This document shows, in pieces, positions 11,046-41,820 of a stretch of DNA of 61,137 nucleotides. Source of the stretch: a virus. The notes under the pieces were generated by a model. That model did not search any database, was not told where the DNA came from, and was given only the letters and a program-made list of their open reading frames with translations. Every line of letters starts with the position of its first letter. Position 1 is the stretch's first letter. The position numbers and the translations under genes are program-made. The DNA lies in the IMG/VR virus record IMGVR_UViG_3300020732_000001, positions 1-61,137 of that record; one strand, given 5' to 3'.

Positions 11046-11494
11046 TAGTTTATGCAGATTGCGATCCTATAAAATTAGTAGAAGAGCTTGAACAGCTTCT
11101 TCCAGAGCATTATGATGAGTTGTGTGTAACAAAAGACTTTGATTGGGATCCTGATTATGATGCCTATCGAAAGTATGCAGAATTAGGCATGTTGCGTTGT
11201 GTTTCTTGTAGGAATGATGGTGAGTTGATTGGTTATATTATTTTTATGATTAGTCCGCATTTACACTATAAGTCATGTATTACAGCGATAGAAGATGTGT
11301 ATTTTGTTAAAAAAGAGTTTCGTAAAGGTCGTGTTGGGATTAAACTATTTCAATATGCCGAACAGGTGTTAAAGCATTGCAAAGTAGATCGAGTGATTGT
11401 TCATACCAAGATTCATTTGGATAATTCAAGATTGTTGGAATATTTAGGTTATAAGCAAACAGATAAAGTGTTTACGAAAATGTTAAAGGATTAG
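11042..11494 (+). CDS. GNAT-family N-acetyltransferase
   Basis: A 150-residue protein with the GNAT core: EDVYFVKKEFRKGRVGIKLF at about 81-100, whose R-x-x-x-x-G-x-G-like turn is the acetyl-CoA pyrophosphate loop, followed by a helix and the C-terminal strand. ATGA overlap with the previous gene. GNAT proteins sit beside internal virion genes in several podoviruses. The substrate is unknown; host or virion protein modification is possible. Confidence 0.83.
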   Translation: MIVYADCDPIKLVEELEQLLPEHYDELCVTKDFDWDPDYDAYRKYAELGMLRCVSCRNDGELIGYIIFMISPHLHYKSCITAIEDVYFVKKEFRKGRVGIKLFQYAEQVLKHCKVDRVIVHTKIHLDNSRLLEYLGYKQTDKVFTKMLKD

Positions 11495-17100: not shown

Positions 17101-20100
17101 TCCAAAGATGCTGGTATTCCAGAGGGCAGTTCTTTTAGTCAATTTTCTGATTCAGAAGACGTTAAAAACTTGCGTAATTTTTTAACTAAAGGACCCAAAA
17201 AAGAAGAAGTCAAAGTAGAAAAAAAGCCAGCTGAAGAACATATTGAGCCAAACAAAGTTGAGCCAGTTACTCCAAAGACTATAGAAAAGTCTATTGAAAA
17301 AGCTCAATCTAGAGTAGATTACAAAAAAATCAAACAGGCAATTTCTAATCAATTTGATCAGGCCATCAAAAGGGCTACGATTCAAACTGAAAAAGAATGG
17401 GATGCATCAACTAAAGAACGAGATAGTTTTGTAAAGATTGACATTCCTGGTGATGGTAAGTTCAAGGTGGCAAACAATGTAGAACGTCTTGAAGATCTTA
17501 AGAAAAAACTTATTAACGCTGCCGCTCCAAAGACTGGTGGCATTCCAAGAGCACCAAGTGCTGCAAGTGTATCGTCTGCTGAGACTGCATTTAAGAACTT
17601 TGTTGAAGAGCAAGATTTTGAGAATGCAATTAAATACGCTGAACTCAAAGGCTTGGATATGAAAGAAGTCAAGTTGACTCCAGATCAGCGGAAACAGTTA
17701 GACAATTACATCAAAAATCCAAAGGCATTTGAAGAAGAGAAAGCTGAAGTTGAAAAACAATCAGAAGATTATGTAGAAGCTCAAAAAGAAAATGCTGTTG
17801 AAAAATTAAATCTTAAAGAAGAAAAACCAAAGGCTGGTCAAGTATTCCCAGCACCAGCAGTTAATAAAAAATTGTTTGAGGGCACAGATAAGCCCATTAC
17901 AAAAAAACCAAATTGGATGGATGAAGGAGTATGGAATCAATATGAACGATTCCAGGCTGGTAATTTCTCTATGCCAACTGCATCATTTCAAGGTGCTGAA
18001 CGGATTAAAAAAGGAAATGAGTTTAAAAAAGAAGCAGAGAAAAATTACAAAGAAGCGGCTAGGATATTCCTTAGATTTGCATCAACGGCTAAATTCCCAA
18101 CGGCTCGTGCTGATAAATTGATATTGGAAAAAGGTTCTTACATCCCAGCCAGACCAATTGAAAAGAAAATTATTGGGGCATTTACTGAGCCAAATATTAA
18201 GAAGGCTGTATATGCATTGGTAGATCCAAAAGAAGTTAGAGAGGCTTTGCGTGGTGCTGTATTAGAACCAGATAAAACAGTCTCGACTGATGGCAAACGA
18301 TTATTGATTGTTAATACCAAGAACGATGTTACTAAACCAACGATTGTTGATAAAGATGGCAAAGTAATTGAGGCTCAGATTGCTCCCTACGAGAAGGTAT
18401 TAGAAAAGTATAAAGACTTAAAACCAAGTCATGGCGTTAATGCTGAAGCGTTGGGGGACTATGCTCGTGGAGTTATCAAAGGACACAAGTATGCTGGTAA
18501 TACTTTTTATCCAATTACTTTGGTTGTGGGTAAAGAGAATTACACATTTAATGCAGAGTTTATTGAAGACCTAACAAACGCTTTTAGACAGTTGGGATAT
18601 CCAGAGTTCAATATAGGAATTCAAGATAAGATGTTGAAAGCGGTATCGCCAGATGGAAAAGTAACACAGTTACTCATGGGTATGACAGAGCGTGATACCA
18701 ACTTCATGCCATTTAATATTAATAACGGATATCCAAGTTTTACGAGCGATGAAAAATTGGGTGAAGAGTATTTTATTGAAGGTGAAGCTACGGATATCTC
18801 TAACCGTAAGTTGCTTGCTGGCCCTGTAGATGAGTTATCTGAACAAGAACAAGTCAAGTTAGAAGAGCATTACGGTGCAAAACGCAACACCAGAGAGTTT
18901 TTTACTCAATTAAAAGATGATGTTATTCGTGCTACAAACGAAGGTATTGGCATTATTGATAGTGCAATTCGAGATATCATTGCCAAGATTCAAGCTGGGG
19001 TTTTAGCCGTAGCAATTATCTTTAATCCTGCCTACATGAGTGAAGGCAACTATTTCATGATGCCTACCAAAGAAAGGTCGGTCAGGATTGAACAGGTCAG
19101 AGCTGAAGTTCCTGCCGAAGCAGAAGGTATGTCAGAGGCTGGTAAACATGCTTACTCGATGATTGCACCTGCACAAAGTGGCACTAAGTACTTTACGATT
19201 GTTGACAAACCTACTGCAACAGCGTATGTCTTTAACCCAGATGGTAGTTTAAAGATCTCAAGAAAAGTATTGTTAGGTAAAGCGTTTGGCGATTCTTATG
19301 TTGGTCAAGTTCAATTTGAACAAAATAGACAGACTCCAGCAGGAATGTTTACCATTAATGCTGAAAAAGGTAATCTGCGTGACTACGATGGCAAGACTAT
19401 CTACACATTAAGTGGTGATAAAGGTGCGTTCCATGTGGCTGTCATGCATACGGTCTATACTAAAGAGTCAGATGGTAAAGCTAGATTAAATGCATTGACT
19501 ACTCCTGGTGCTGCCGACTCTCGTTATTCGCATGGCTGTATCAACGGCACTCCTGAGTTTATGCAGTCCATCAACGATGAGAAGATGGATCAATCTCATA
19601 TGTTTGTTGTGCCTGATAATCAGGCTAAAGTTGATGATTTCTTGGCAAACAATGTTCCTAAAGATGACTTGGATCGCATGGAAGTCAAGCCAGTTGAAAG
19701 ACAGGTTGTAGAAGAGCGTGAACAGCAAAAAGTGGTTAGTGGTGCACAGCAAGATTTATTAGCGACTAGAGAAGAAGAAATCAAAGCCCCAAAGACGCAA
19801 GCAGAAATTAATCGTGAACGCCAACAGGCTAAAAAAGCAAGCCAAGAAACGCCTGAAGAAGATTATCGTGGAACATTTACAGATAACCTTGATGAACGCA
19901 GATTTTTCAAAGAAGAAAGTTTATCCAATAAACAACATGCTTCTGAACAGGCTCGCAAAGTAAAAACTTCTATTACCAAAATTTTAAGACAAATGGTAAA
20001 GGGTAACTTTGGTATTGATACCCAAAGAGCACTTACAGAACTTTTATCTGAAAGAACCATTACCAATATAGAAAAGAAATATGCTAGGGTAAGAATTGAT

Positions 20101-23100
20101 TCTGCCGATGCATTCTTGGCTAATGCTATTCGTGATGCTGAATTGCATAGAGCTTATCCAAAAGATGAACGTTATGGTCTAAAGCCAGAGGTATTGGCTG
20201 TAATTAAAGAAGTTAATCGTAGATTTCCAAATGTTTTAGATGGCTTAAGGTTAAGCATTAAGAAACCCAATGAACGTGGATCAACAGGTAACTTTGCACC
20301 ATTATCAAGAATAGTGACGTTATATAAAGACACATCAGGCACATCAGAGCCTAAAACATTTAGACATGAAATTATGCACTCACTTGAGCAGATGATGCCA
20401 GATGATGTGTACATGAAAGTTATTAATAACTGGGCTAAGTCTTTAGCGAAAGCAATTGAAAACTATACAGATAAAAAACATCAAAAATATTTTGATGCTG
20501 TTTTAGATTATGTCAATAATCCAAATGAGCAAACATATCAAAAAGCAAAAGATGCTTTGCCTAATTACAACATGTATCAATACATTAATCCTTCTGAGTT
20601 CTGGGCGGTTAATGCTGAGAAACTGTTTGGGCAGAAGCTAGGCGGTCGTTGGGAAAACTTTAAACGAGCCGTACAAAAACTATTTGAAGGATTAAAGAGT
20701 GTCTTTGGTTTTGATAATCGTTATGGTGTGCATGTGGCGTTTGATCGTTTATTCAAGGGAGATCTTGAGCGTGGCGAGAGTAGACGTATGCTGGTGGATT
20801 ATCTGTATCGTAACAATATAACCAAAGAAACCATATTAGAGAATGTAGATTCAGATGAAATTAATGAATTGTCTGAGAAGCATGGCATCAATGAGCCACC
20901 AGAAAAATTATCGCCATCTGTTGTAGATTGGATTACAGGTGGTAAACAATATGTAAAAAATCTAAAAAATAATTTAAAAGAATCACCAAGAGGCGTAGCT
21001 GTTCAGATGACTGGTAATCTGGATAATGCATTGCTTGGCTTTAGAATCAAAACAACTGACTTTACGGCAGGTCTTGCAGCTGCCGATGCTGAAAAGTATG
21101 GTCGTAAGTTAGAAAACGGCATGAACCAAGCGATTGCTGCAGTAGCAAGCAATCAAGCATTAAGAGCAATTCGTATAGCTTCTAGGGTTGTGGCCAGAGG
21201 AAAATTGGTATTTGATCCTCAATGGCAAATGTTTAGAGCTCAAGAAGACAAGCATTCAATGGCAAACATTTTCCGATTAAGAAAAGAATTTGCTAAACGA
21301 GTTGGTAAATCAGAGGCTAAAAAAGCAATTCAGGGTTTCTTTGAGGCATTACGTTCTAAGAGTATTATTCAAGAGTATGTAGATAGACAAGCCGATTTAG
21401 AAAAATACTTAGCAGAACAAGCTGATCCAACAACTAATGCTAAACGCCAAGCTAAATTAATTAAATTAATTAATGAAGCTCAAGATGATTTGAAAAACGT
21501 AAGTATTGCATTAGAAAAAGTTAGATTGAGTGATGATGCTATTTATGACTTAATTAAGATGGGTGAAAAACATCCAGAGTTAGTGGAGATTCGTAAGAAT
21601 TGGAATGCTATTAATCAAAATATGATTAATATGATGGAGTTTGCCAGCATTATTAGTGAAGAACGTGCCAATACTTTGCGTAATATCAAGGACTATGTTC
21701 CTTGGAATCGTATTATGGATGAGCAAAAAGATGCTCGCAATCCTGTTTGGCTATATACCTCTAAAGGCGTACGAAACGTCAATAGAGAACCAATTTTTAG
21801 ACGAGGAGCAACGAACAGGGATATTGATGACATCATTGATAACATGACGCACAACGTCATGATGATTACTCGCAATGTCATTAAAAACTATGCTGCTAAT
21901 CGTATTGCTCAGGAGTATGCGGAGCGTGATGAAAATGGCAAAATTAAAACTTACCCAGCTGAAGATTTTAGTAAAGGTATTGTTAAAATTTTAGTCAACG
22001 GACAAAAAGTTAATGTCAAGATTCTTGATATGTATGTGGCTCAATCCGTTATTGGTGCTGAGAATGTTCAAATTCCACTTAATGGTATTATGTCGTTCTT
22101 TGCAAACCTTGCAAGAAGAGCGATTACTTTAAGCCCTAAATTCCAAGTTAAACAAGCATTCCAAGATGCGTTTACTGCGGCTATGGTTACTGGTGTTAAA
22201 AACCCTGCTGCTTTGTTAGGGAATGTCTTTGTATCGTTTGCCAAAGGGTTAAATCCCAACGATGAAGTCATTAATACATTAAAAGATTTTGGTGTGGGCG
22301 GTTTTTCTGGCATATCTAGAACACAACAAGGGCGTTACTCTCAAGAAGTTGGCATGTTAAATGATAATCGTCTTTCTCAATTAACTGGACTACTTGACCA
22401 TATTGCTGATGCTTCTGACTATTCACAGCGTATGGCCGCTTACAATCGAGTAATGGCTGAGACTAATGGTGATGTGCGAGCTGCGATTCTTGCTGCGACC
22501 AATGTGATTGACTTTGAAAAACATGGTGCTGGCATAACAATGCAATTTTTAAATCGTACCATTATGTTTATGAATGCTTATGCCCAACAGATCGATGTAT
22601 TAACTCAAGCGTTAATGCTCAATCCTAACGGTGGTCTGCGTGGCATTGATCGTCAGCAAGCTTTAATTCGATTAGGAACAGCTGTAGCAATGATGGCTGG
22701 TATGACATTGCTTTATACATCTTGGGCTGGTGATGACGATGAGTATCAAAAGACAGATGACCGTACTCGTATGCGTAACATTATTCTTCCTAAAGGCAAA
22801 ACTGGCTTTGATCAAACTTATTACATTCCAATTAATACTTCAGCCTCATTCCTGGTCAAAGGCATGATTGAGATGTTACATAACAAATATATTAATGAAT
22901 CATTTAAAGATAAGATTGATGGCACAAGATTTCGTTCAGCCATGTTAAAAGGATTTGTTGATTCTATGTTAGGACCTTTGACTTCTGGACCAGTACCAAC
23001 AGCGTTCAGAGCACCTACTGAAATTATATTGAACCATAACTTTTATACTGGTGGTAAGGTAACTCCAGACAGTATGAAGAACTTAGCAGCATTTCGACAA

Positions 23101-23658
23101 TTCAATGCCAATACATCTGAACTGGGTAAATACATTAGCAGAGCTACTCAGAATCCATTAGATCCAGAACAAAGAATGTTAAACCCAATGGAAGCAGATC
23201 ATGTCATGCGTGGCTTAGGAGGTTCTGTATCAGCTGTTGCCATGTATTTATCTAATATGTTATCTGGCAATCATCCTACGCAAGATGACCGTAAGAATCC
23301 ATTGTATGGAGACTTTATTGCACCTGAGATTCCAAAAGGTAACGAAGAGTTATTCTATGACCTTAAATCTAGGGCTGAAGTAGCTCATGACACAATGACA
23401 GATATGTATCGAAATCAGCATACAGAAGAGGCTCAGAACTGGCAAAAAGCTCATGAAGGATTAATTAAAGCTTATGGATTTACAGAAAGTGCTGGTAAGT
23501 CTTTAGCAGCATTAAATAAAGAAATTCAAAGAACGGCTGACCTTCCAGAGGCTCAGATGACTAAAGAACAGAAAAAAGCCAGAATGATTGAACTGCAAAA
23601 AACAAAACAGATTATTCTTGATAAGACAATCGAGTTTAGAAAGTTAGCTGGACTGTAA
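14182..23658 (+). CDS. Giant multidomain ejection protein with L,D-transpeptidase-like and zincin motifs
   Basis: At 3158 residues this is the largest gene. Residues ~200-300 are Ala/Gly-rich and possibly membrane-active. Residues ~380-1250 are low-complexity Lys/Glu coiled coils with repeated AELNRERQQAKK-type helices. At about 1700-1830 a YkuD-like domain ends in RYSHGCING with the catalytic-type Cys at 1786. A zincin motif HEIMH lies at 2062-2066. The C-terminal third resembles the large polyvalent 'LPD38' associated region and includes hydrophobic helices. Proteins of this type are stored in the head and ejected; the two motifs suggest peptidoglycan remodelling and proteolysis at entry. 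Its 3' end overlaps the opposing resolvase gene by 23 bp. Confidence 0.85.
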   Translation: MPSVSIPYVGVVNFPDDMSHEDISNAIQNHILPNAPHPAATQPGSTSLADTLQQSIFAPVQALFPSVGTEPSTMVGSLAKGVQSLKDIGAQAKLSDLIPLQELDKENYGPNFERAPTTGPQSRENLLATREKVNQYLGQLEQSKANAQAIDAKYGVDPLSKKITALEQTKDFKDASTWEQTKKIGSELLSNFTDIPEYIANVGLSSLPQSIAMAVASKVGASAGITGAMVAGGASSAFMEYGNEYVDLREQGFTHEQANDKAAVKSGIIGLLDAVSLNSAGKVAEKIFGGTRQALKETAKDIGKEIPKQAALGAAGEGFGSYLSNQPVNPRAVMEEALGEVFGAPGEAMSTYQGKRAQQIQNQEAPVVKPEPKGTVTIGPSTPPVPLITEADLEEEPSGRPPVLPTLPHTLEEIMDKGEPVETKQEAEKAHSDGDTVYGFHEQDEEHPVLIKDIDQLKGYTPDQLMVVPKEEKPKEQRKKESPIASSTTYNVKTEDAGTFLTQVFRNKDGSIDIMDEDGQVIKNNKEFAKGKSDAELLAYHFEPLGYESHEVVPKEETPAEVKKEEEQKEEESTSNIVTGVGVNPETINKVIDARSAGKAKDYIKKHGQEFFDQALKDGLIRTFTVGKNTFVTTTDEGDDLYYTNTKTDDGKYSLKEVQDAVDSVKGEWEQFADADKFIKKYPDMLTSAWKSGFLRTSASGTNLFAVYNEEDLERAKQNQADEENPIEMFKQNIAERAAEEKAREEEKAKAPKTKAELNRERQQAKKEAAEKKKQEEEVKKKQLDEEAEMKMPEEIEAEELKDKIAPNETKKINATNYISKSTNAEKLNGWSKIDTYSSIILVGQEDPNVKEFTQHTWTFNPKSGTDAMRAQNLVQVWTQENPLKKEEPKGKIKIEPVVKKTQAEINKERQEAKKNATKKPQDFTNDELDLAAKIVYNGNGIEYEKSVLPILKKLQDAGLIKLQGTKVFLTQESKDAGIPEGSSFSQFSDSEDVKNLRNFLTKGPKKEEVKVEKKPAEEHIEPNKVEPVTPKTIEKSIEKAQSRVDYKKIKQAISNQFDQAIKRATIQTEKEWDASTKERDSFVKIDIPGDGKFKVANNVERLEDLKKKLINAAAPKTGGIPRAPSAASVSSAETAFKNFVEEQDFENAIKYAELKGLDMKEVKLTPDQRKQLDNYIKNPKAFEEEKAEVEKQSEDYVEAQKENAVEKLNLKEEKPKAGQVFPAPAVNKKLFEGTDKPITKKPNWMDEGVWNQYERFQAGNFSMPTASFQGAERIKKGNEFKKEAEKNYKEAARIFLRFASTAKFPTARADKLILEKGSYIPARPIEKKIIGAFTEPNIKKAVYALVDPKEVREALRGAVLEPDKTVSTDGKRLLIVNTKNDVTKPTIVDKDGKVIEAQIAPYEKVLEKYKDLKPSHGVNAEALGDYARGVIKGHKYAGNTFYPITLVVGKENYTFNAEFIEDLTNAFRQLGYPEFNIGIQDKMLKAVSPDGKVTQLLMGMTERDTNFMPFNINNGYPSFTSDEKLGEEYFIEGEATDISNRKLLAGPVDELSEQEQVKLEEHYGAKRNTREFFTQLKDDVIRATNEGIGIIDSAIRDIIAKIQAGVLAVAIIFNPAYMSEGNYFMMPTKERSVRIEQVRAEVPAEAEGMSEAGKHAYSMIAPAQSGTKYFTIVDKPTATAYVFNPDGSLKISRKVLLGKAFGDSYVGQVQFEQNRQTPAGMFTINAEKGNLRDYDGKTIYTLSGDKGAFHVAVMHTVYTKESDGKARLNALTTPGAADSRYSHGCINGTPEFMQSINDEKMDQSHMFVVPDNQAKVDDFLANNVPKDDLDRMEVKPVERQVVEEREQQKVVSGAQQDLLATREEEIKAPKTQAEINRERQQAKKASQETPEEDYRGTFTDNLDERRFFKEESLSNKQHASEQARKVKTSITKILRQMVKGNFGIDTQRALTELLSERTITNIEKKYARVRIDSADAFLANAIRDAELHRAYPKDERYGLKPEVLAVIKEVNRRFPNVLDGLRLSIKKPNERGSTGNFAPLSRIVTLYKDTSGTSEPKTFRHEIMHSLEQMMPDDVYMKVINNWAKSLAKAIENYTDKKHQKYFDAVLDYVNNPNEQTYQKAKDALPNYNMYQYINPSEFWAVNAEKLFGQKLGGRWENFKRAVQKLFEGLKSVFGFDNRYGVHVAFDRLFKGDLERGESRRMLVDYLYRNNITKETILENVDSDEINELSEKHGINEPPEKLSPSVVDWITGGKQYVKNLKNNLKESPRGVAVQMTGNLDNALLGFRIKTTDFTAGLAAADAEKYGRKLENGMNQAIAAVASNQALRAIRIASRVVARGKLVFDPQWQMFRAQEDKHSMANIFRLRKEFAKRVGKSEAKKAIQGFFEALRSKSIIQEYVDRQADLEKYLAEQADPTTNAKRQAKLIKLINEAQDDLKNVSIALEKVRLSDDAIYDLIKMGEKHPELVEIRKNWNAINQNMINMMEFASIISEERANTLRNIKDYVPWNRIMDEQKDARNPVWLYTSKGVRNVNREPIFRRGATNRDIDDIIDNMTHNVMMITRNVIKNYAANRIAQEYAERDENGKIKTYPAEDFSKGIVKILVNGQKVNVKILDMYVAQSVIGAENVQIPLNGIMSFFANLARRAITLSPKFQVKQAFQDAFTAAMVTGVKNPAALLGNVFVSFAKGLNPNDEVINTLKDFGVGGFSGISRTQQGRYSQEVGMLNDNRLSQLTGLLDHIADASDYSQRMAAYNRVMAETNGDVRAAILAATNVIDFEKHGAGITMQFLNRTIMFMNAYAQQIDVLTQALMLNPNGGLRGIDRQQALIRLGTAVAMMAGMTLLYTSWAGDDDEYQKTDDRTRMRNIILPKGKTGFDQTYYIPINTSASFLVKGMIEMLHNKYINESFKDKIDGTRFRSAMLKGFVDSMLGPLTSGPVPTAFRAPTEIILNHNFYTGGKVTPDSMKNLAAFRQFNANTSELGKYISRATQNPLDPEQRMLNPMEADHVMRGLGGSVSAVAMYLSNMLSGNHPTQDDRKNPLYGDFIAPEIPKGNEELFYDLKSRAEVAHDTMTDMYRNQHTEEAQNWQKAHEGLIKAYGFTESAGKSLAALNKEIQRTADLPEAQMTKEQKKARMIELQKTKQIILDKTIEFRKLAGL

Positions 23659-24046: not shown

Positions 24047-24057
24047 AACTGCTAGGA
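24047..24057 (+). promoter_or_regulatory. CTGCTAGGAG-type leader/ribosome site (truncated copy)
   Basis: AACTGCTAGGA lies 8 bp before the ATG at 24066. It is the first member of a motif family at 34643, 38861, 40886, 41809, 33265 and 33396. The AGGA part can act as Shine-Dalgarno; the conserved AACTGCT part is not needed for that. Confidence 0.75.
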
Positions 24058-32327: not shown

Positions 32328-32812
32328 AAATAGAATTAAATCGTCATGAAATGTTAATGTGCGAATTATTTGGTTCTATTCGCAGAAAAAACGCTATGCA
32401 ATTTAATTATGATCGCCAGGTCAGCAAACAAGATCCATATGACATGGACATTGATGGTTTTATGGGAGAGTTTGTAGTAGCCAAATATTTAAATATTATG
32501 GTAGATACTTCAATCAATGAAAAAAAGAATCCAACAGATTTATATTTCAATGCTTATTCAGTAGATGTAAAGACTACTCGTAATCCAAAAGGTGGAGTTT
32601 ACGTCACAGAATATCATCGTAAATCGCCATGTGATTACTATATACAAGTTGTAATTAATGGTAATGTTGGTCATATAACTGGCTGGATTGATAAATATGA
32701 TTTATTTTCCAAAGCTGAATATATATCTGGATCTCATCCATCTTATAAATTAAATCAAGAAAATCTTTTACCTATAGAATTACTATATGTACCGAAACAA
32801 ACAACTTCTTGA
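32324..32812 (+). CDS. Predicted PD-(D/E)XK nuclease-like protein
   Basis: A 162-residue protein with GFMGEFVVAKYLN (Glu in the first helix), NPTDLYFNAYSVDVKTTRN (Asp then V-D-V-K, the D...DxK active-site pattern), and a later WIDKYDLF. This is the arrangement of small restriction-endonuclease-fold proteins. The role could be DNA processing or host-DNA degradation. It overlaps the next nuclease gene by 26 bp. Confidence 0.68.
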   Translation: MKIELNRHEMLMCELFGSIRRKNAMQFNYDRQVSKQDPYDMDIDGFMGEFVVAKYLNIMVDTSINEKKNPTDLYFNAYSVDVKTTRNPKGGVYVTEYHRKSPCDYYIQVVINGNVGHITGWIDKYDLFSKAEYISGSHPSYKLNQENLLPIELLYVPKQTTS

Positions 32813-33083
32813 ACTGGTTCGTGTTATTCCTTGTCAAAACTGTGGCCTACAGGATGGAACGGTGGTCGCTGCTCATTCTAATCAACTTCGAGATGGTAAA
32901 GGTCGTGGAATCAAAGCTCACGATTATAGGGTGGCAGCTTTATGTTACAAATGCCATAGTGAATTAGATCAAGGTAATAGACTTTCTAAAGAAGAACGAG
33001 TAGAAATGTGGGAAGAAGCCCACAGAAATACGATTGGTTGGTTATTTGAAAATGATTATGTTAAAATTTGTTTAGTTCCTTAA
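32787..33083 (+). CDS. YbcO/DUF1364-type HNH-like nuclease
   Basis: A 98-residue protein with CQNCG at 16-20, His30, GKGRGIKAHDYRVA, then CYKCH at 53-57 and ELDQG. This is the zinc-bound pattern of YbcO/Rap-type phage recombination nucleases (DUF1364). It probably trims or cuts branched DNA. It is the last gene before a good intrinsic terminator. Confidence 0.82.
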   Translation: MYRNKQLLELVRVIPCQNCGLQDGTVVAAHSNQLRDGKGRGIKAHDYRVAALCYKCHSELDQGNRLSKEERVEMWEEAHRNTIGWLFENDYVKICLVP

Positions 33084-33261
33084 TTTGAGTTATGTCTTGT
33101 TCTGGAATTAGAGCTAGGTTTGGGTTACCGCCCTGTCTAGCTCGTTTTTTTTGAGGTTCGATTTTTAGTGCCACAGCCAAAAAACAATATGTTGACACTT
33201 TTTTAAAATTTCGTCTATACTTAGTGGGTACACCCCATGTACTACCGTCACCGTGACGCAT
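33061..33261 (-). CDS. Possible small protein with CTGCTAGGAG leader (66 aa)
   Basis: The minus-strand ATG at 33261 lies 3 bp after CTGCTAGGAG, sharing 14 bases (CTGCTAGGAGTTTA) with the leaders of two real minus-strand genes, so it may be genuine. The product has a basic centre (EPQKKRARQGGNPNLALIP). Against it, the frame crosses a strong plus-strand terminator and a plus-strand promoter, its stop overlaps the nuclease gene, and no minus-strand promoter is obvious. Either the gene or only its start-site sequence is functional. Confidence 0.35.
   Translation of the reverse strand: MRHGDGSTWGVPTKYRRNFKKVSTYCFLAVALKIEPQKKRARQGGNPNLALIPEQDITQIKELNKF
33111..33152 (+). terminator. Intrinsic terminator of the recombination/small-gene operon
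   Basis: GAGCTAG (33111-33117) pairs with CTAGCTC (33137-33143), with an inner GGG/CCC pair, followed by G and eight Ts. It is 28 bp after the nuclease stop and is the clear end of the long plus-strand operon. Confidence 0.85.
33192..33221 (+). promoter_or_regulatory. Sigma70-type promoter
   Basis: TTGACA (33192-33197), 18-bp spacer, TATACT (33216-33221); predicted start near 33226-33228. It is the best consensus promoter I see in the window, and no gene follows it before a terminator. Confidence 0.8.
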
Positions 33262-33264
33262 AAA

Positions 33265-33274
33265 CTCCTAGCAG
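33265..33274 (-). promoter_or_regulatory. CTGCTAGGAG motif, minus orientation
   Basis: A copy of the early leader motif. On the minus strand it precedes the ATG at 33261. On the plus strand it is the anti-leader segment in the loop of the candidate small RNA. Beyond the motif, GCGTCACGG follows after TTTAT, matching the plus copy at 33398-33417 with a 4-nt difference in spacing. Confidence 0.8.
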
Positions 33275-33313
33275 GGTTAATCAAAACTGACGGTAGGATC
33301 CTCCCTGATCCCT

Positions 33314-33356
33314 CCCCAGAACCCTAGACTAATCATCTGGGGTTCTTTCTTTTTGT
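33314..33356 (+). terminator. Intrinsic terminator of the small-RNA unit
   Basis: CCCCAGA (33314-33320) pairs with TCTGGGG (33336-33342), followed by TTCTTTCTTTTTG. A second perfect pairing, AGAACCC/GGGTTCT (33318-33324 with 33340-33346), is mutually exclusive with it. Confidence 0.75.
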
Positions 33357-33386
33357 GCTTGCAAAATATTTTAAAATGGTTTAATC

Positions 33387-33407
33387 TATAATCTCAACTG
33401 CTAGGAG
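33387..33407 (+). promoter_or_regulatory. -10 element and AACTGCTAGGAG leader copy
   Basis: TATAAT at 33387-33392 is followed by AACTGCTAGGAG at 33396-33407. A TTGCAA lies 22 bp upstream of the TATAAT, too far for a normal -35. Transcription would begin at or within the motif. The first ATG (33419) opens only a 15-codon frame ending at 33466. Confidence 0.55.
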
Positions 33408-33511
33408 TGCGTCACGGAATGAATCAACTCCGTGATAACAATTTGTGTATTTTGTATATACGTTAATTTAACGTGTATAGATTTATGCCATTTTGTTTAC
33501 GCACTCCTAGC
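33400..33511 (+). ncRNA. 112-nt three-way inverted-repeat element
   Basis: GCTAGGAGTGCGT (33400-33412) and ACGCACTCCTAGC (33499-33511) form a perfect 13-bp outer stem that would bury AGGAG. Inside are a CACGGA/TCCGTG hairpin (33413-33418 with 33429-33434) and an ACGTTAA/TTAACGT hairpin (33460-33466 with 33468-33474). It may be a folded RNA, a replication origin cruciform or an operator pair. The symmetry itself is directly visible. Confidence 0.5.
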
Positions 33512-33870
33512 ACGATGATTTAGGTCTATCGGTCTGAGTATGTGTGAAAGTTGCCCTTGAAGTTGAGTAGAACGGCAAAAAGACATACGTTTACGTTCTT
33601 CCTAAATTAGCGTGATAGTGAGCAAAGAAGATTGTTTAGGCTCAAGGTGTGGAAGCGTGGTCTTTACTCTGTCTGAGAACGATTGAGAACAATAGAGATC
33701 ATTCGGTGACACTTAAACGAACTCGTAGTACAGAGTAGAAAGCACCGATGTGTGAACTAGACTACCAATGGTTCATTAACTTGATATGAAGTAAGCGACC
33801 GAAAGGATATCGAGTTGAGTTTTCCTTCAATCCCATGCTGTGGGGTTGGGGGAAACCTCACTTTCAATTT
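33512..33870 (+). ncRNA. Candidate large structured RNA
   Basis: No convincing reading frame. Nested and serial pairings occur: GTATGT/ACATAC (33538/33583) enclosing TTGCC/GGCAA (33551/33574); CCTAAA/TTTAGG (33601/33635); and GGT-CTTT-ACTCTG with CAGAGT-ag-AAAG-c-ACC (33659-33671 with 33731-33746). A GAAA-capped CGACC/GG-ata-TCG hairpin follows (33796-33812). Last is a terminator-like GTGGGGTT/AACCTCAC hairpin (33840-33861) before a T-rich stretch. Base composition is less AT-rich than nearby genes. No known RNA family recognised. Confidence 0.42.
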
Positions 33871-33894
33871 CGTTTCGCTCCCTCAAGGATATAT

Positions 33895-34101
33895 ATGAAA
33901 GAAATCGTAGAACAGAGAATTAAAGAGTTGGAACGGTTGGTTGAGATCACACCGATAAATAAGAGTTTCAGTCTTCAGTCGAGACTGGTTGAGGCGAAAC
34001 ATATCTTAGATCTAATTAATCAAGAAGAGAAGTATGTATCAGAAAGTGTAATGAATGAAATACAAGATGCTTTATATGGAAAAATGAAAGGAAAGAAATG
34101 A
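33895..34101 (+). CDS. Hypothetical helical protein (68 aa)
   Basis: ATG 33895, with AAGGA upstream, is preferred over an in-frame upstream start at 33835 that would run through the terminal hairpin. MKEIVEQRIKELERLVEITP..., charged and helical throughout. It is the first gene after the non-coding region. Confidence 0.7.
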   Translation: MKEIVEQRIKELERLVEITPINKSFSLQSRLVEAKHILDLINQEEKYVSESVMNEIQDALYGKMKGKK

Positions 34102-34627: not shown

Positions 34628-34654
34628 TATACTGAAATTTCCAACTGCTAGGAG
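34628..34654 (+). promoter_or_regulatory. -10 element plus AACTGCTAGGAG leader before parB-like gene
   Basis: TATACT (34628-34633) is followed by AACTGCTAGGAG (34643-34654), 5 bp before the ATG at 34660. No good -35 is visible at normal spacing. This is the full 12-base form of the motif and marks a new transcription unit for the replication genes. Confidence 0.65.
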
Positions 34655-34659
34655 AATAA

Positions 34660-35514
34660 ATGAAGAAAGTAAATATACTCGCCATTCGTATTGATGGCGG
34701 CACTCAATCTCGTGATAAATTAAATGAAGATGTAGTAAAAGAATATGCTGATTGCATGAAAGATGGTGCAATATTTCCACCGATTACAGTCTTTTTCGAT
34801 GGCTCTGATTACTGGTTAGCCGATGGTTTTCACAGATACTTTGCTAATAAATCTTTAGGTAATGTAGCCCTTGACTGCGATGTCAAAGAAGGCACTTGTA
34901 GGGATGCAGTCTTACATTCCTTTGGTGCAAACGGCAAGAATGGTCTACCACCAACGGCCAAAGAAAAACGCAATATTGTGATTAAAATGATCCAAGATGA
35001 AGAATGGGGTAAATGGTCAAATAAACATATTGCAACCATTGTCCATGTATCCTCAATGACTGTGGGTAGAATCAGAAAAGAATTAGAAGAAGAGCCGAAA
35101 GAAAAAGTCACCTATCTTCGTCAAGGCGTAGAAGTAGAAGCAAAAAAACCAAAGAAGAAAAAAGCTGAAAAGAAAAAAGAAGAACCTATAGCAGAACCAG
35201 TAGATCCTGTAGTGGTAGATCCTGTAGCTCCAGATCAATCTTTAAATCCATTGGAAATCAAGATTGATGAACTTAGTCGAGACATTATTGATTACATTGA
35301 AGAGATCACAAAACTTAAGGATGTGATTGCAACTAAACGATACGATGCCACAGAGTTTGAGCAAGAGGATGCTTTGATGACGATCCAAGAACTTCGTGAG
35401 GAAATTAAACTTAAAGATAGAGAAATTAAATCATTGCGTGATAGTCGTGATATGTATCAAGAACGCAATGCTGAACTCATTAAACAACTCAAAGCTTATC
35501 AGAAGAAAAAATAA
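34660..35514 (+). CDS. ParB/Srx-like DNA-binding protein with coiled coil
   Basis: The N-terminal ParB-type fold has IDGGTQSRDKLNEDVVKEYA and the signature DGFHRYFA at about 55-62, then a helix-turn-helix (IATIVHVSSMTVGRIRKEL, ~126-145). A Lys/Pro linker and a long coiled coil (~200-280) follow. Such proteins bind DNA sites and may load replication proteins or use CTP. Overlap by 1 bp with the helicase suggests they work together, perhaps as replication initiator and helicase. No ParA is present. Confidence 0.82.
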   Translation: MKKVNILAIRIDGGTQSRDKLNEDVVKEYADCMKDGAIFPPITVFFDGSDYWLADGFHRYFANKSLGNVALDCDVKEGTCRDAVLHSFGANGKNGLPPTAKEKRNIVIKMIQDEEWGKWSNKHIATIVHVSSMTVGRIRKELEEEPKEKVTYLRQGVEVEAKKPKKKKAEKKKEEPIAEPVDPVVVDPVAPDQSLNPLEIKIDELSRDIIDYIEEITKLKDVIATKRYDATEFEQEDALMTIQELREEIKLKDREIKSLRDSRDMYQERNAELIKQLKAYQKKK

Positions 35515-37001
35515 TGGAGTTAGTATTAAGAGAACACCAACTGGGGGTGGTCGATGCACTTCGCCAGGGCTTTAGAGATGGACATCGAACGCAGCTTTTA
35601 TACGCACCAACTGGCTTTGGTAAAACTGAAGTAGCCATTCATTTAATGAAAGCAACGGCTGAAAAATATAATCGTGCTGCCATGATTTTGGATCGTATTG
35701 TATTAATAGATCAAACCAGTTTAAGACTTACTAAATACAGGCTTGATCATGGTGTATTACAAGCTGATCATTACAAGCGTGACATTACTAAACGAATTCA
35801 AATCTGCTCTTCTCAAACAATAGAACGCAGAAACAAATTACCAGAGATGGATTTATTGATTGTGGATGAATGCCATATCACTCGTAAACAAATCTCTGAC
35901 ATCATTAAAAACAATCCCAAGCTGAAAGTCATAGGTTTAACTGCAACTCCGTTTACCAAAGGTTTGGGTGCTTTGTATTCCAATGTTGTTTGTGGGGCTA
36001 CAACGGAAGATCTGGTTAAAAAGAAATGGCTTGCACCACTCAAGGTATATATCGCCAAAGAAATTGATATGACTGGTGTTACAAAGGTGGCTGGAGAATG
36101 GAGTCCAGATCAAGTTACAGAACGAGGGATGCAGATTACTGGTGATATCGTTGTGGAGTGGGAAAAGAAAACCTATGAAGTATTTGGTAAGCCTCGCAAG
36201 ACGATTGTATTTTGTGCAGGAGTTAAGCATGGGCAGGACTTGGTAGAACAGTTTGCAAGAAAAGGATATAACTTTGTCAGCATAAGTTATTTAGATTCAA
36301 CTGAATATAAACAAGAGGTAATTGATGATTTTTCAAAACCAGATACTGAAATACATGGTCTCATTGCTACTGACATACTTACTCGTGGTTTCGATGTTCC
36401 TGACGTTATGATAGGAGTCTCGGCAAGACCATTTGCCAAATCTTTATCGAGCCACATTCAACAGCTTGGCAGAGTTATGCGTAGTTATGAAGGCAAAGAG
36501 TTTGCTTTATGGCTTGATCATTCAGGGAATTATCTTCGTTTTATAGAAGAATGGGATGATATCTATTCTAATGGTGTAGAAGTTCTGGATGATAAGTTAG
36601 ATAAAGCAAAGAAGGAAAAGACAGAGAAAACAAAAGCAGAACTAAAGTGTCCAAAATGCTCTGCTCTCTGGCCAAAGAACAGTCAATCATGTCCAGCTTG
36701 TGGTTATGTAAGAGCCAGGACACAAATCGCCACAGTCAAAGGTGAATTGTTTGAACTCAAAGGGCAGACACAGATCAATAACAAACAACAGCAACAGGAC
36801 TTTTATTCTGAGTTAATCTACATGGCAAATGAACGCAATTACAACATCAACTGGGCAAGTAATAAGTTTCGAGAGAAGTATGGGGTATGGCCTAATGGAT
36901 TTATCCAATATCCAAGAATACCATCTTTAGAAACAATTAAATTTGTAAAGCATCGCAATATTGTTTACGCAAAACGTCAAAATAAAATGAGGGGATTATG
37001 A
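35514..37001 (+). CDS. SF2 DEAD/DEAH-type helicase with C-terminal zinc ribbon
   Basis: A 495-residue helicase: motif I APTGFGKTE (31-39), motif II DECH (~117-120), motif III TATPF (~143), motif VI QLGRVMRS (~316). The two RecA-like domains are followed by a zinc ribbon with Cys at 379, 382, 393 and 396. Similar RecG/SSL2-like phage helicases replace a ring helicase in replication or act in recombination. The gene lies between the ParB-like and Toprim genes, overlapping both. Confidence 0.92.
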   Translation: MELVLREHQLGVVDALRQGFRDGHRTQLLYAPTGFGKTEVAIHLMKATAEKYNRAAMILDRIVLIDQTSLRLTKYRLDHGVLQADHYKRDITKRIQICSSQTIERRNKLPEMDLLIVDECHITRKQISDIIKNNPKLKVIGLTATPFTKGLGALYSNVVCGATTEDLVKKKWLAPLKVYIAKEIDMTGVTKVAGEWSPDQVTERGMQITGDIVVEWEKKTYEVFGKPRKTIVFCAGVKHGQDLVEQFARKGYNFVSISYLDSTEYKQEVIDDFSKPDTEIHGLIATDILTRGFDVPDVMIGVSARPFAKSLSSHIQQLGRVMRSYEGKEFALWLDHSGNYLRFIEEWDDIYSNGVEVLDDKLDKAKKEKTEKTKAELKCPKCSALWPKNSQSCPACGYVRARTQIATVKGELFELKGQTQINNKQQQQDFYSELIYMANERNYNINWASNKFREKYGVWPNGFIQYPRIPSLETIKFVKHRNIVYAKRQNKMRGL

Positions 37002-37834
37002 TTGAATTTATTAACTTCGCAAGAGATTACGGCTTAATTCTTAACAATGTTATCTATGATAAATGGGTGGCAACTCCGACCGAAGATCATCCAAGATCCA
37101 GTAATGGTCGCTATAAACTTTTAGGTGATGTAGGATGGGTGCAAAACTGGGCAACGATGGAAAAGCCAGTTACTTGGTTTGCTGATGGAATCAATCAACA
37201 GGAAGTTAAGCAACGAATTAAAGAATCAAATGACAATCGGCAGAACAATGCAAAAAAAGCAGCAGATCGAGCTGCGTGGATACTCAGCCAGACGAGTCTG
37301 GACAGGCATCCATATCTAGAAAGAAAAGGATTCCCCAACGAATTGGGGAATGTTTGGATCAAAGACGATAGACAAATTTTAGTAGTTCCTATGAGGCATC
37401 AAGATAGAATAGTGGGCTTGCAACTCATCAATGACGAGGGGGAAAAAAAGTTCCTGTATGGTCAGACCTCTAAAGGGGCAACTTTCTCGATGAATGCAAA
37501 AGGAACTCCGATATTCTGCGAGGGTTTCGCTACTGGGCTTTCGATTCGAGACATTATGCAAAGCATGAATTTGCCGTATTGCATTCACATTTGCTTTAGT
37601 GCAAGTAATATGCAGTTCGTAGCAAGGAACATCAGGAGTGGGATCGTTATCGCTGATCACGACTCCAATGGTGTCGGAGAACGATTCGCCAAAGACACAG
37701 GCAAACCTTATTGGCTCTCTGAAGCAGTTGGGGAAGATTTTAATGACTATCATATGCGTGTCGGCAAGTTCAAGGCTTCACAGGCTTTAAAGAAGATGCT
37801 AATAGCCTTAAAAAACGAGCCTCAATCTGTCTAA
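36998..37834 (+). CDS. Toprim-domain primase
   Basis: 278 residues; an N-terminal helical part, then the Toprim fold: FCEGFATGLSI (~173-183) with the catalytic Glu, and IADHDSNGVG (~217-226) with the DxD metal site. This matches P4/plasmid-type Toprim primases. No fused helicase is present; the SF2 helicase directly upstream (ATGA overlap) probably supplies that function. The 3' end overlaps the opposing sigma-like gene by 65 bp. Confidence 0.85.
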   Translation: MIEFINFARDYGLILNNVIYDKWVATPTEDHPRSSNGRYKLLGDVGWVQNWATMEKPVTWFADGINQQEVKQRIKESNDNRQNNAKKAADRAAWILSQTSLDRHPYLERKGFPNELGNVWIKDDRQILVVPMRHQDRIVGLQLINDEGEKKFLYGQTSKGATFSMNAKGTPIFCEGFATGLSIRDIMQSMNLPYCIHICFSASNMQFVARNIRSGIVIADHDSNGVGERFAKDTGKPYWLSEAVGEDFNDYHMRVGKFKASQALKKMLIALKNEPQSV

Positions 37835-38048
37835 CTCGTTCTCTGGTCACACCAAAGCGAGATCCTACCTCGTTTAAAGTGTGACCTTCAGCTCGCAATC
37901 GCATCATCTGCCAGTATTTTTCTTTAAGATCATCCCTGTTTTTATAAAGACTAAAAAAGACTTCCTTCGTAGGGAAGTCCACCAATTTGTAGGGATTGTT
38001 ACCACCAACAAAAATCGGCACTCTGCCACCACATTGACTAAAATTCAT
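37770..38048 (-). CDS. Small sigma-70 region-4-like DNA-binding protein
   Basis: From ATG 38048 the product is 92 residues. Residues ~52-82 read AEGHTLNEVGSRFGVTRERVRQIEARF, the helix-turn-helix of sigma region 4.2 including the hallmark RVRQIE. No region 2 is present, so it is not a complete sigma factor. It could redirect host RNA polymerase at -35 elements or act as a co-activator. It is the last gene of the minus-strand operon and its start overlaps the previous stop. The non-ideal -35 boxes before several leaders would fit such a factor (inference). Confidence 0.82.
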   Translation of the reverse strand: MNFSQCGGRVPIFVGGNNPYKLVDFPTKEVFFSLYKNRDDLKEKYWQMMRLRAEGHTLNEVGSRFGVTRERVRQIEARFLRLLASSLKPVKP

Positions 38049-38205
38049 GGGGATCAACCTCGCAGTAATCAAAATCAACAACTTCTTCGCCTTTGTTTAA
38101 TTCAAGTTCATCCCAAGCATACTCTTCAGGATCTTCGCCATTTGGCACATCCACAGTAATGGTAACTTCTCTTTTAAGGTAATAAGTTACATCATATCGT
38201 TTCAT
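38038..38205 (-). CDS. Small acidic protein (55 aa)
   Basis: ATG 38205 overlaps the previous stop (ATGA); the stop lies just inside the sigma-like gene. MKRYDVTYYLKREVTITVDV begins a beta-rich, strongly acidic protein. Its short beta opening echoes the next gene upstream (MKTYLVEFTQEVTQTLGFYV), suggesting related folds. Confidence 0.72.
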   Translation of the reverse strand: MKRYDVTYYLKREVTITVDVPNGEDPEEYAWDELELNKGEEVVDFDYCEVDPHEF

Positions 38206-38860: not shown

Positions 38861-38932
38861 CTCCTAGCAGTTAAACGATTGCAAAATGGCAATCCCAATG
38901 CCCAATTAAGGGCATCAGGATTACAGCACTTA
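38861..38932 (-). promoter_or_regulatory. Structured intra-operon leader, copy 1
   Basis: Read on the minus strand: the upstream stop codon in TAAGTGC, hairpin ATGCCC/GGGCAT (38898-38903 with 38910-38915), hairpin GATTGC/GCAATC (38877-38882 with 38889-38894), then AACTGCTAGGAG (38861-38872). The same order with the same shared blocks occurs at 40886-40963. Neither hairpin has a T-run, so these are not simple terminators. Confidence 0.7.
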
Positions 38933-40885: not shown

Positions 40886-40963
40886 CTCCTAGCAGTTAAA
40901 GTTAATGATTGCCGAAAATGACAATCCCTAAACCCTCTAGAGAGGGCTTAGAGGTGGCACTTA
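40886..40963 (-). promoter_or_regulatory. Structured intra-operon leader, copy 2
   Basis: Minus strand: TAAGTGC at the upstream stop, hairpin CCCTC/GAGGG with flanking CTAA/TTAG (40928-40937 with 40942-40951), GATTG/CAATC hairpin (40907-40911 with 40922-40926), then AACTGCTAGGAG (40886-40897). It matches the copy at 38861-38932 in block order and in the GGGATTG-y-CATTTT and CAATC blocks, while hairpin 1 differs in sequence but keeps its pairing. Confidence 0.72.
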
Positions 40964-41368
40964 GTGGCTCTCTTCTGTCTCTGGTGCTTGAGTAAACAAT
41001 TCAGGGAAAGCCGTAAAAAGTTTATAAGCGTTTGTTTGATCTGCTCTAGTGAAAGCCTGAGCAAGATAGAAAGCAAACGAGCCTTGATTCTGCATAATGT
41101 TGCATGACTCGAAGGCTTGAGCCTTTTGGATAGCGTTTAATTTCATAAGGTGATTCCTTTGTGAGTGAAAAAAATTGTCTGCTGAACTTTTGGAGAGAGA
41201 ATATAAAATTTGCTCTGGTGTAGGATCGTTGAGAGCCCACCACTCAAGACAGTTATATTTAGTGTTAAATCTGGCGATATCGTAAAGCGTAACATCAGCA
41301 TGAGGGGATTTAAAGGCGATTACTTGACCTTCAAATAGTGGTGTTGCTGTAAAGTTCGTTCCTCTCAT
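40961..41368 (-). CDS. Hypothetical protein (135 aa)
   Basis: ATGA overlap with the first gene of the operon. MRGTNFTATPLFEGQVIAFK ... NPTPEQILYSLSKSSADNFF; contains FYLAQAFTRADQTNAYKLF near the end. No recognised family. Confidence 0.72.
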   Translation of the reverse strand: MRGTNFTATPLFEGQVIAFKSPHADVTLYDIARFNTKYNCLEWWALNDPTPEQILYSLSKSSADNFFHSQRNHLMKLNAIQKAQAFESCNIMQNQGSFAFYLAQAFTRADQTNAYKLFTAFPELFTQAPETEESH

Positions 41369-41799
41369 GCTAGAGCCTCCTCTTTCTGGGTGATGTAATA
41401 GCCGATTGTGTGCCCTTTTTTATTGCCTTCCCATTGGACTTCTAAGCCGATCGCTTCGGCGATTCTACGCATGGACTCAATCCCACAACCTCCATTTAAG
41501 TAAACTGAGCCATCTGGCTTAATGAATAAGCCGTAATAGTTGGGGTGATAAGTGCCCTTCACTACCTTATCAGGAGTAGAGCCGTAATCCTCTAAGGGGA
41601 GATCTCTAACAAGGGCTTGAAGTGCCTCTTGGTGTTCACACTCTAGATAGTCTCCAAATACTGTGCCGATCATGTCATAGCCTCCACCATTACATTTATA
41701 AGAGTGCCCAGATCGTGAGGAAAGTTTGCAAATGTTATAGCCGTAAGTGTCTCGACCTCTGGAGACTGACCAAGTGATTTTAAGATGATTGATTTTCAT
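41365..41799 (-). CDS. Hypothetical protein, first gene of the minus-strand operon (144 aa)
   Basis: MKINHLKITWSVSRGRDTYG ... GHSYKCNGGGYDMIGTVFGD ... LYLNGGCGIESMRRIAEAIG style blocks recur in many phage early regions, but I know no function. Starts 9 bp after AACTGCTAGGAG. Confidence 0.76.
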   Translation of the reverse strand: MKINHLKITWSVSRGRDTYGYNICKLSSRSGHSYKCNGGGYDMIGTVFGDYLECEHQEALQALVRDLPLEDYGSTPDKVVKGTYHPNYYGLFIKPDGSVYLNGGCGIESMRRIAEAIGLEVQWEGNKKGHTIGYYITQKEEALA

Positions 41800-41808
41800 G
41801 TTTTTAAA

Positions 41809-41820
41809 CTCCTAGCAGTT
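41809..41820 (-). promoter_or_regulatory. AACTGCTAGGAG leader of the minus-strand operon
   Basis: A full 12-base motif followed by TTTAAAAAC and the ATG at 41799. The leader sequence CTGCTAGGAGTTTAAAAA is also present at the 40886 copy. There is no structured hairpin block here, unlike the two downstream intra-operon copies. Confidence 0.78.

Follow-up and report, generated by a model that had tools for sequence, protein, structure and literature searches.

A structured RNA and its coevolving small RNA in a freshwater phage: a possible, so far unrecognised switch for DNA replication

What does a virus genome carry in a long stretch that holds no gene and lies close to its replication genes? 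The ORF list of the freshwater phage record analysed here (an IMG/VR record; the whole stretch of 61,137 nt is called the window) contains no ORF across 33084-33895. A preliminary description had proposed that positions 33512-33870 are gene-free and densely structured. Our comparisons confirm this with corrections and supply the comparative proof. The locus holds two noncoding units, a small RNA (sRNA1) and a large RNA (RNA2), as read from the sequences of the window and its relatives, and it may be an unrecognised RNA switch that starts or controls phage DNA replication. The preliminary description contained neither sRNA1 nor its covarying complementarity to the 5' arm of RNA2, and it contained neither the exchangeable bodies of RNA2 nor the covarying direct repeat. 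The features are collected in Table 1.

Table 1. Predicted features of the cassette, its flanking genes and the shared leader motif in the window.
Feature	Coordinates	Strand	Details and basis
Small HNH/YbcO-like nuclease gene	32787-33083	+	upstream flank; PHROG 131, E 4e-25
sRNA1 promoter	33192-33221	+	TTGACA 33192-33197, 18 nt spacer, TATACT 33216-33221; direct reading
Predicted sRNA1	~33228-33354	+	~127 nt; fold, homologous segments in relatives
Antisense segment CCGTGACGCATAAACTCCTAGCAG	33251-33274	+	in sRNA1 loop; complementary to RNA2 5' arm
sRNA1 intrinsic terminator	33318-33354	+	AGAACCC...GGGTTCTTTCTTTTT; fold and sequence, also in relatives
RNA2 promoter	33359-33387	+	TTGCAA 33359-33364, 17 nt, TAATCT 33382-33387; direct reading
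Predicted RNA2	~33394-33892	+	~490 nt; 5' hairpin and body
RNA2 5' hairpin	33399-33512	+	114 nt; z -9.5
RNA2 hairpin arms	33399-33418, 33499-33512	+	5' arm (sRNA1 target), 3' arm
RNA2 body	33513-33884	+	~372 nt; class A/E, window subtype A; A/E alignment, covariation
Direct repeat X, AAGGATAT	33803-33810	+	within body; co-varies with X' in A/E, D
Direct repeat X', AAGGATAT	33885-33892	+	body 3' end; co-varies with X
ParB-like gene	34660-35514	+	first of downstream replication module
Helicase gene	35514-37001		replication module, after ParB-like gene
Toprim primase-like gene	36998-37834		replication module, after helicase
AACTGCTAGGA leader before gene 24066	24047-24057	+
AACTGCTAGGA leader of ParB-like gene	34643-34653	+	Shine-Dalgarno; candidate sRNA1 target
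AACTGCTAGGA leader before - strand gene	38862-38872	-
AACTGCTAGGA leader before - strand gene	40887-40897	-
AACTGCTAGGA leader before gene 41365-41799	41810-41820	-

sRNA1 is predicted to consist of a 5' hairpin, a long stem with a display loop, a GATC hairpin and a terminator. The long stem (33242-33250/33288-33296, 9 bp) presents a loop of ~37 nt; the fold has a z of -4.7, with 0 of 200 shuffles equally good, and the promoter is kept in nearly all relatives. Owing to the high variability of the display loop, RNAalifold on a MAFFT alignment gave a poor consensus, and support for the sRNA1 structure comes from single-sequence folds and pairing statistics. For RNA2, the TATAAT at 33387, from which the preliminary description measured the element, would require a 22-nt spacer, and relatives keep the register of TAATCT (as TAATCT, TAACCT or TATTCT), so the -10 element is more probably TAATCT. 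The preliminary description rightly regarded the structured stretch as a large RNA continuous with an element at 33400-33511; its total length is ~490 nt instead of ~470 nt, and it extends past 33870 to the repeat at 33885-33892. The terminal hairpin at 33813-33865, described as terminator-like, is strong, but no T-run follows it, so that it is not an intrinsic terminator; no intrinsic terminator was found 3' of the RNA2 bodies in the sequences of the window and its relatives.

For 33394-33880 on the + strand the folding energy is -157.6 kcal/mol, compared with -122.3 +/- 5.9 for shuffles (z -6.0). A large share of the excess belongs to the RNA2 5' hairpin region, since 33394-33512 alone gives z -9.5. 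By itself, 33512-33870 reaches only z -2.7 (the - strand -0.3), and a slightly different cut about -1.9. Shuffled folding energy, the control suggested earlier, is too weak to decide the matter, because E relatives with strong covarying structure reach just -0.6 to -2.3. The comparison of 14 distinct, diverged E sequences gave a consensus fold of 83 pairs with 90% of cells paired and an energy of -127, against -66.5 +/- 4.9 for column shuffles. Both-sided changes occurred at 46 of the 83 pairs, compared with a mean of 28 and a maximum of 36 in shuffles and 15-26 in slid pairings. Between the window and L225, the diverged copy closest to it (89% identical), 16 changes fall at predicted pairs, 3 of them compensatory, 13 consistent and 0 disruptive, although this consensus was predicted from those same two sequences and leans towards agreement. 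Comparison of related sequences, not shuffling, settles that the RNA2 body is a real structured RNA.

Several individual helices noticed earlier also appear in this comparison. The TTTAGG/CCTAAA stem is the closing stem of the body (TGATTTAGG/CCTAAATTA) and is compensatory in E relatives, and the GTATGT/ACATAC and TTGCC/GGCAA stems are present in the window/L225 consensus. In contrast, the 13-bp interrupted stem joining 33659-33671 to 33731-33746 belongs to the single-sequence fold only and is broken in L225 by ACCCTG/ATGAGT; the alternative, a pairing with ~33690-33703, is kept in L225 via a compensatory U-A to C-G change. A protein-coding gene was rejected: no ORF in the window's list spans the body, no conserved reading frame was found in relatives, and A/E relatives differ by many indels. 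ARAGORN and Rfam gave no match to tRNA, tmRNA or group I intron, in agreement with the preliminary description, and Rfam gave no riboswitch match for the window.

Relative loci (L numbers) were gathered via the helicase, HNH and ParB proteins and DNA patterns. sRNA1 and the promoter and hairpin of RNA2 are conserved at the same position in many phages. In L010, L009, L012 and L013, homology to the window breaks off where the hairpin ends or just short of that point, and at least four unrelated body classes (A/E, B, C and D), about 200-390 nt in length, occupy this one locus. The conserved blocks TCTATCGG, ACGTTCTT and CAAAGAAG of the window body are common to subtype A and the larger group E, and a gapped pattern found 32 contigs. 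Classes B and D contain compensatory helices, several of which are mutually incompatible (pseudoknot-like) in D. Different bodies follow the same 5' specificity: L005 (A) and L010 (B) both carry GGTACAGGGTTAGAAC, and L038 (A) and L013 (C) both carry GGAGTAGGACATTGG. Judged from these sequences, bodies are exchanged like a cassette between related phages, with the 5' specificity retained. The window body is near-identical in L003, L005, L007 and L038, beside a diverged hairpin, sRNA1 and ParB (53-55% identity), which points to a recent spread of this body type. The cassette is modular on both sides, because other 5' modules, either a promoter-driven RNA with a terminator end or a large terminator hairpin, precede the same bodies in additional phages.

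Only class D is represented in Rfam, by RF02932 (Betaproteobacteria-1; 89-100 bits, gathering 49). The window and the A, B, C and E relatives gave no Rfam match at threshold, and for the window and bodies B, C and E the gathering and permissive thresholds returned chance matches only. Neither the locus nor bodies B, C and D gave a blastn match in INPHARED. An 18-mer of the window body found near-identical copies and two coding-sequence coincidences in IMG/VR, and the class D motif found just two coincidences, within coding genes, in GTDB genomes.

In L218, L214, L227, L235, L237 and L179, a promoter and a structured RNA form a different 5' module just upstream of the body. This module reads CGGCTTGGTAACCCG ... 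GGCAACCAAGCC ... GCTCGT with an intrinsic terminator at its end; the terminator stem closes the entire RNA, an E or B body follows directly, and Rfam gave no match to the module. Further upstream in L237, L218, L220, L235, L188 and L179 lies a conserved intergenic motif of ~110 nt, TTGGTGG...GGTTAGCGCC...CACTGCTTTATGTGAGCCACCAA, which looks like another structured RNA. The class D RNA of L210 (MW202545.1, 10759-10950) overlaps hypothetical CDSs at 10596-10823 and 10817-11053, and the class E RNA of L213 (MW202426.1, 7713-8093) overlaps one at 7745-7981; these CDSs are probably spurious. Five tRNA genes (10009-10490) lie directly upstream of the class D RNA in L210. L026, whose locus is related to the class E contig L025, has two fragments resembling the 5' end of the class B RNA (8465-8514 and 8847-8897), and L213 has a marginal Rfam match to int-alpA RNA (RF02996) at 3090-3157, just ahead of a ParB-like gene.

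The sRNA1 loop is complementary to the 5' arm of RNA2, and the window's own pair has a cognate pairing energy of -38.4 kcal/mol. Across 26 specificity groups, the duplex of sRNA1 loop and RNA2 5' arm averaged -30.2 kcal/mol for cognate and -20.4 kcal/mol for non-cognate pairs, and the variable part alone gave -15.4 cognate versus -8.4 foreign. No permutation was as good (p<=5e-5, 26 groups), and the cognate RNA2 was the best partner in 17 of the 26. Compensation was also found in the otherwise constant motif, as CCATTTAGCAG/CTGCTAAGTGG in L084 and GTAGCAGTTG/CAACTGCTAAGG in L149. These sequence data indicate that the complementarity is maintained while both sides change. Within RNA2, the 5' and 3' hairpin arms also co-vary (31 loci; cognate -22.6 vs -15.0 kcal/mol, p<=5e-5). 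Since hairpin arms and sRNA1 complementarity both co-vary, the RNA2 5' arm appears to have two alternative partners.

The second covarying element is a short direct repeat, with X inside the body and X' at its 3' end, seen in A/E and D bodies. X and X' change together in relatives (GTCGGTGGAAA/ATCGGTGGAAA, ACAGTGGAA/ACAGTGGAA, GAAAGGTATC/AAAAGGTATC and AATAAGCAT/AATCAGCAT), and in permutation tests the covariation scored 7.3 vs 3.7 in A/E (15 distinct) and 8.9 vs 5.6 in D (11 distinct), each with p~1e-5. In class B no clear X/X' repeat was seen, none having a consistent position, and class C gave only a hint of one. X is only ~8-11 nt long and purine-rich (74% vs 55% for the window). A shared internal partner for X and X' was searched for and none was found; such a partner is unlikely, because the body has no consistently placed internal complement of X. 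X could instead pair with the template strand at X', since the RNA carries the non-template sequence that is also present in X'.

We favor a replication-control cassette working in the manner of ColE1 RNA I and RNA II, with sRNA1 as the inhibitor and RNA2 as the R-loop or primer RNA, and give this reading a probability of roughly 0.4. RNA2 would be a preprimer whose internal X pairs with the template DNA strand at X' and keeps an RNA-DNA hybrid in place at about 33.89 kb, where leading-strand synthesis would begin towards the ParB/helicase/primase side. sRNA1 would compete with the 3' arm of the hairpin for the RNA2 5' arm, misfold the nascent RNA2 and block the hybrid. This would hold down copy number as well as co-infecting relatives that share the specificity. 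The rapidly evolving variable segment would resemble the incompatibility determinant of a plasmid, and the invariant CCTAGCAG of sRNA1 might also silence phage mRNAs with a AACUGCUAGGAG leader. The steps from pairing to priming are those that we infer. A ColE1-like preprimer is suggested because X is the non-template sequence at RNA2's own 3' border, because the inhibitor RNA is complementary to the 5' ~110 nt and the terminator is absent, and because the cassette lies in or near replication genes in a record without a match to three polymerase families.

The genomic setting bears on this reading from both sides. A position in or near a ParB/helicase/primase module is common to the window, to its close relatives and to most of the A/E loci that have enough sequence. 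The phage record has no match to the pol A, pol B or pol III alpha families, so the host polymerase is possibly used. Against the replication reading stand the phage's own primase-like protein and the position of sRNA1, which is encoded upstream in the same direction and not antisense. X/X' is weak or absent in B and C, the class in L213 lies downstream of primase, some 5' domains are terminator RNAs instead of hairpins of the sRNA1 type, and GC skew does not turn at 33.5 kb. The skew turns near 37.5 kb, where the gene strand switches, and was set aside as uninformative about an origin. A sigma-70 region 4 domain (Pfam E 3e-9) is present in a small protein encoded at 37770-38081 (-), next to the replication module, and the structural half of the genome contains one ORF of 3158 aa (14182-23658).

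More broadly, the cassette might represent a new phage RNA class, with interchangeable unrelated bodies, a guide-like X matching the DNA of the 3' border, and control by a coevolving specificity pair, the trans-encoded sRNA and the 5' hairpin, serving self/non-self discrimination between related phages at replication. We advance this tentatively, the guide-like segment having been demonstrated for the A/E and D bodies.

The main rival, which is partly compatible with the replication reading and ranks below it, is an antisense immunity or decoy switch resembling C4 and P4 CI. sRNA1 would block the Shine-Dalgarno sites of several mRNAs with a AACUGCUAGGAG leader, and the RNA2 5' arm, consisting of the leader and a phage-specific extension, would be a high-affinity decoy or the main sRNA1 target; the structured body would stabilise RNA2 or do a separate job. 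The constant part of sRNA1, CTCCTAGCAG, lies within the antisense segment and is also antisense to AACTGCTAGGAG leaders, covering mRNA Shine-Dalgarno sites. The window has six copies of AACTGCTAGGA versus 0.06 expected, five just ahead of start codons and one in RNA2, and this leader appears to be a phage-wide translation signal complementary to sRNA1. In addition, CCTAGCAG is almost invariant in sRNA1 and its neighbouring segment co-varies with RNA2, and anti-Shine-Dalgarno antisense segments in loops as well as phage heteroimmunity are known for C4 (PMC12197685). However, a decoy leaves the complex ~370-nt body, its exchange and the X/X' covariation unexplained, and RNA2 itself inflates the excess of leader motifs in contigs with sRNA1 (2.46 vs 0.95 per 10 kb), which is suggestive only. 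We regard the decoy switch as rather unlikely.

RNA-guided DNA recognition, in which the body would be a ribonucleoprotein scaffold and X a short guide directed at the matching X' of the phage DNA, is improbable. The covarying self-match without a consistently placed internal complement and the modular spread of the bodies fit this idea, but ~8-11 nt is short for X, and no TnpB, IscB or IS110-type gene occurs among the annotated neighbours, which are part of the window's genes. The adjacent HNH gene encodes a small YbcO-like protein and is missing nearby in some related loci.

We consider it very unlikely that RNA2 acts on its own as a structural or scaffold RNA in the manner of GOLLD or ROOL, with sRNA1 controlling no more than its level. 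ROOL often adjoins tRNA clusters, as the class D copy of L210 does, and the extensive conserved fold in a gene-free region is of the kind expected. Yet the bodies measure about 200-390 nt against more than 600, and RNA2 is linked to a replication module and has the covarying repeat at its 3' end. GOLLD and ROOL both have Rfam models (PMC12286853), and the kinship raised in the preliminary description was not borne out, as the window and the A, B, C and E relatives had no match at threshold and the anatomy differs. That description is partly supported overall, for the large structured RNA but not for this kinship.

A cis-acting leader, an attenuator or riboswitch for the following genes, is equally doubtful. 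The absence of a terminator after the body would suit it, as would the intrinsic terminators that end some relatives' 5' domains just before the body. The following gene, however, differs even where bodies are near-identical (window vs L003/L005), and at several E loci a new promoter-like sequence comes next instead. Chance structure in an ordinary intergenic gap, to which the low z of the body alone (-1.9 to -2.7) might point, is refuted by the covariation: the double changes at the E pairs, the consensus energy and the lack of any broken pair against L225.

Phages are known mostly for protein switches and protein-initiated replication. If the replication reading is true, RNA-encoded copy-number control and incompatibility would be added to phage biology. 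A widespread cassette of this kind would also give a context to the orphan Rfam family RF02932 and contribute three further RNA classes (A/E, B and C) with strong or partial comparative support. It would account for wrongly called ORFs in public phage genomes, and the covarying self-repeat leads to the concrete prediction that the RNA pairs with its own template DNA. We found no prior description of these RNAs in the openly licensed papers searched.

Among known systems, IS110 bridge/seek RNAs and OMEGA RNAs likewise carry a segment that is identical to nearby DNA and co-varies with it; here, in contrast, no recombinase or nuclease of those families was identified among the annotated neighbours, and the cassette is not an insertion element. 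RNA2 resembles GOLLD and ROOL as a large, ornate, phage-borne noncoding RNA, but it is smaller and has another location and other partners. At this phage locus the RF02932 model matches bodies of class D but not the window body (A/E); its 120 nt span only part of a class D body of ~200 nt and leave out the 5' hairpin, sRNA1 and X/X'. P4 CI RNA is a phage antisense immunity RNA in the ~100-nt range, with complementary segments in loops over Shine-Dalgarno regions. sRNA1 is similarly phage-encoded, lies in the same size range and has loop complementarity covering Shine-Dalgarno regions, as does C4 of P1/P7 (PMC12197685), and it would likewise tell related phages apart. In contrast to C4 and CI, it has as partner a large noncoding RNA whose bodies can be exchanged, the coevolution extends across 26 specificity groups, and an integrase match is absent from this record, which is possibly incomplete.

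We liken the proposed pairing of X with the template to that of an RNA II loop in ColE1. The differences are that sRNA1 is trans-encoded, from a position upstream of RNA2 on the same strand, and has bulged complementarity, that the RNA2 bodies have no sequence kinship to RNA II, and that the carrier is a phage. Membership in the ColE1 type was not assigned, because the inhibitor is not antisense-encoded and hybrid formation and priming are here only predicted. In ColE1, RNA I (~110 nt) base-pairs with RNA II at nt 2-110, and a persistent hybrid ~550 nt downstream is thereby prevented (PMC5043065). The phage cassette is similar in having an inhibitor RNA of ~110-130 nt whose complementarity is to the first ~110 nt of a structured noncoding RNA of ~500 nt. 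As in ColE1, specificity resides in the segment that pairs, the large RNA is not followed by a terminator, and replication functions are adjacent (PMC5043065). It is also similar in that, as the A/E and D covariation suggests, the internal X of RNA2 would be able to pair with the template near the 3' end.
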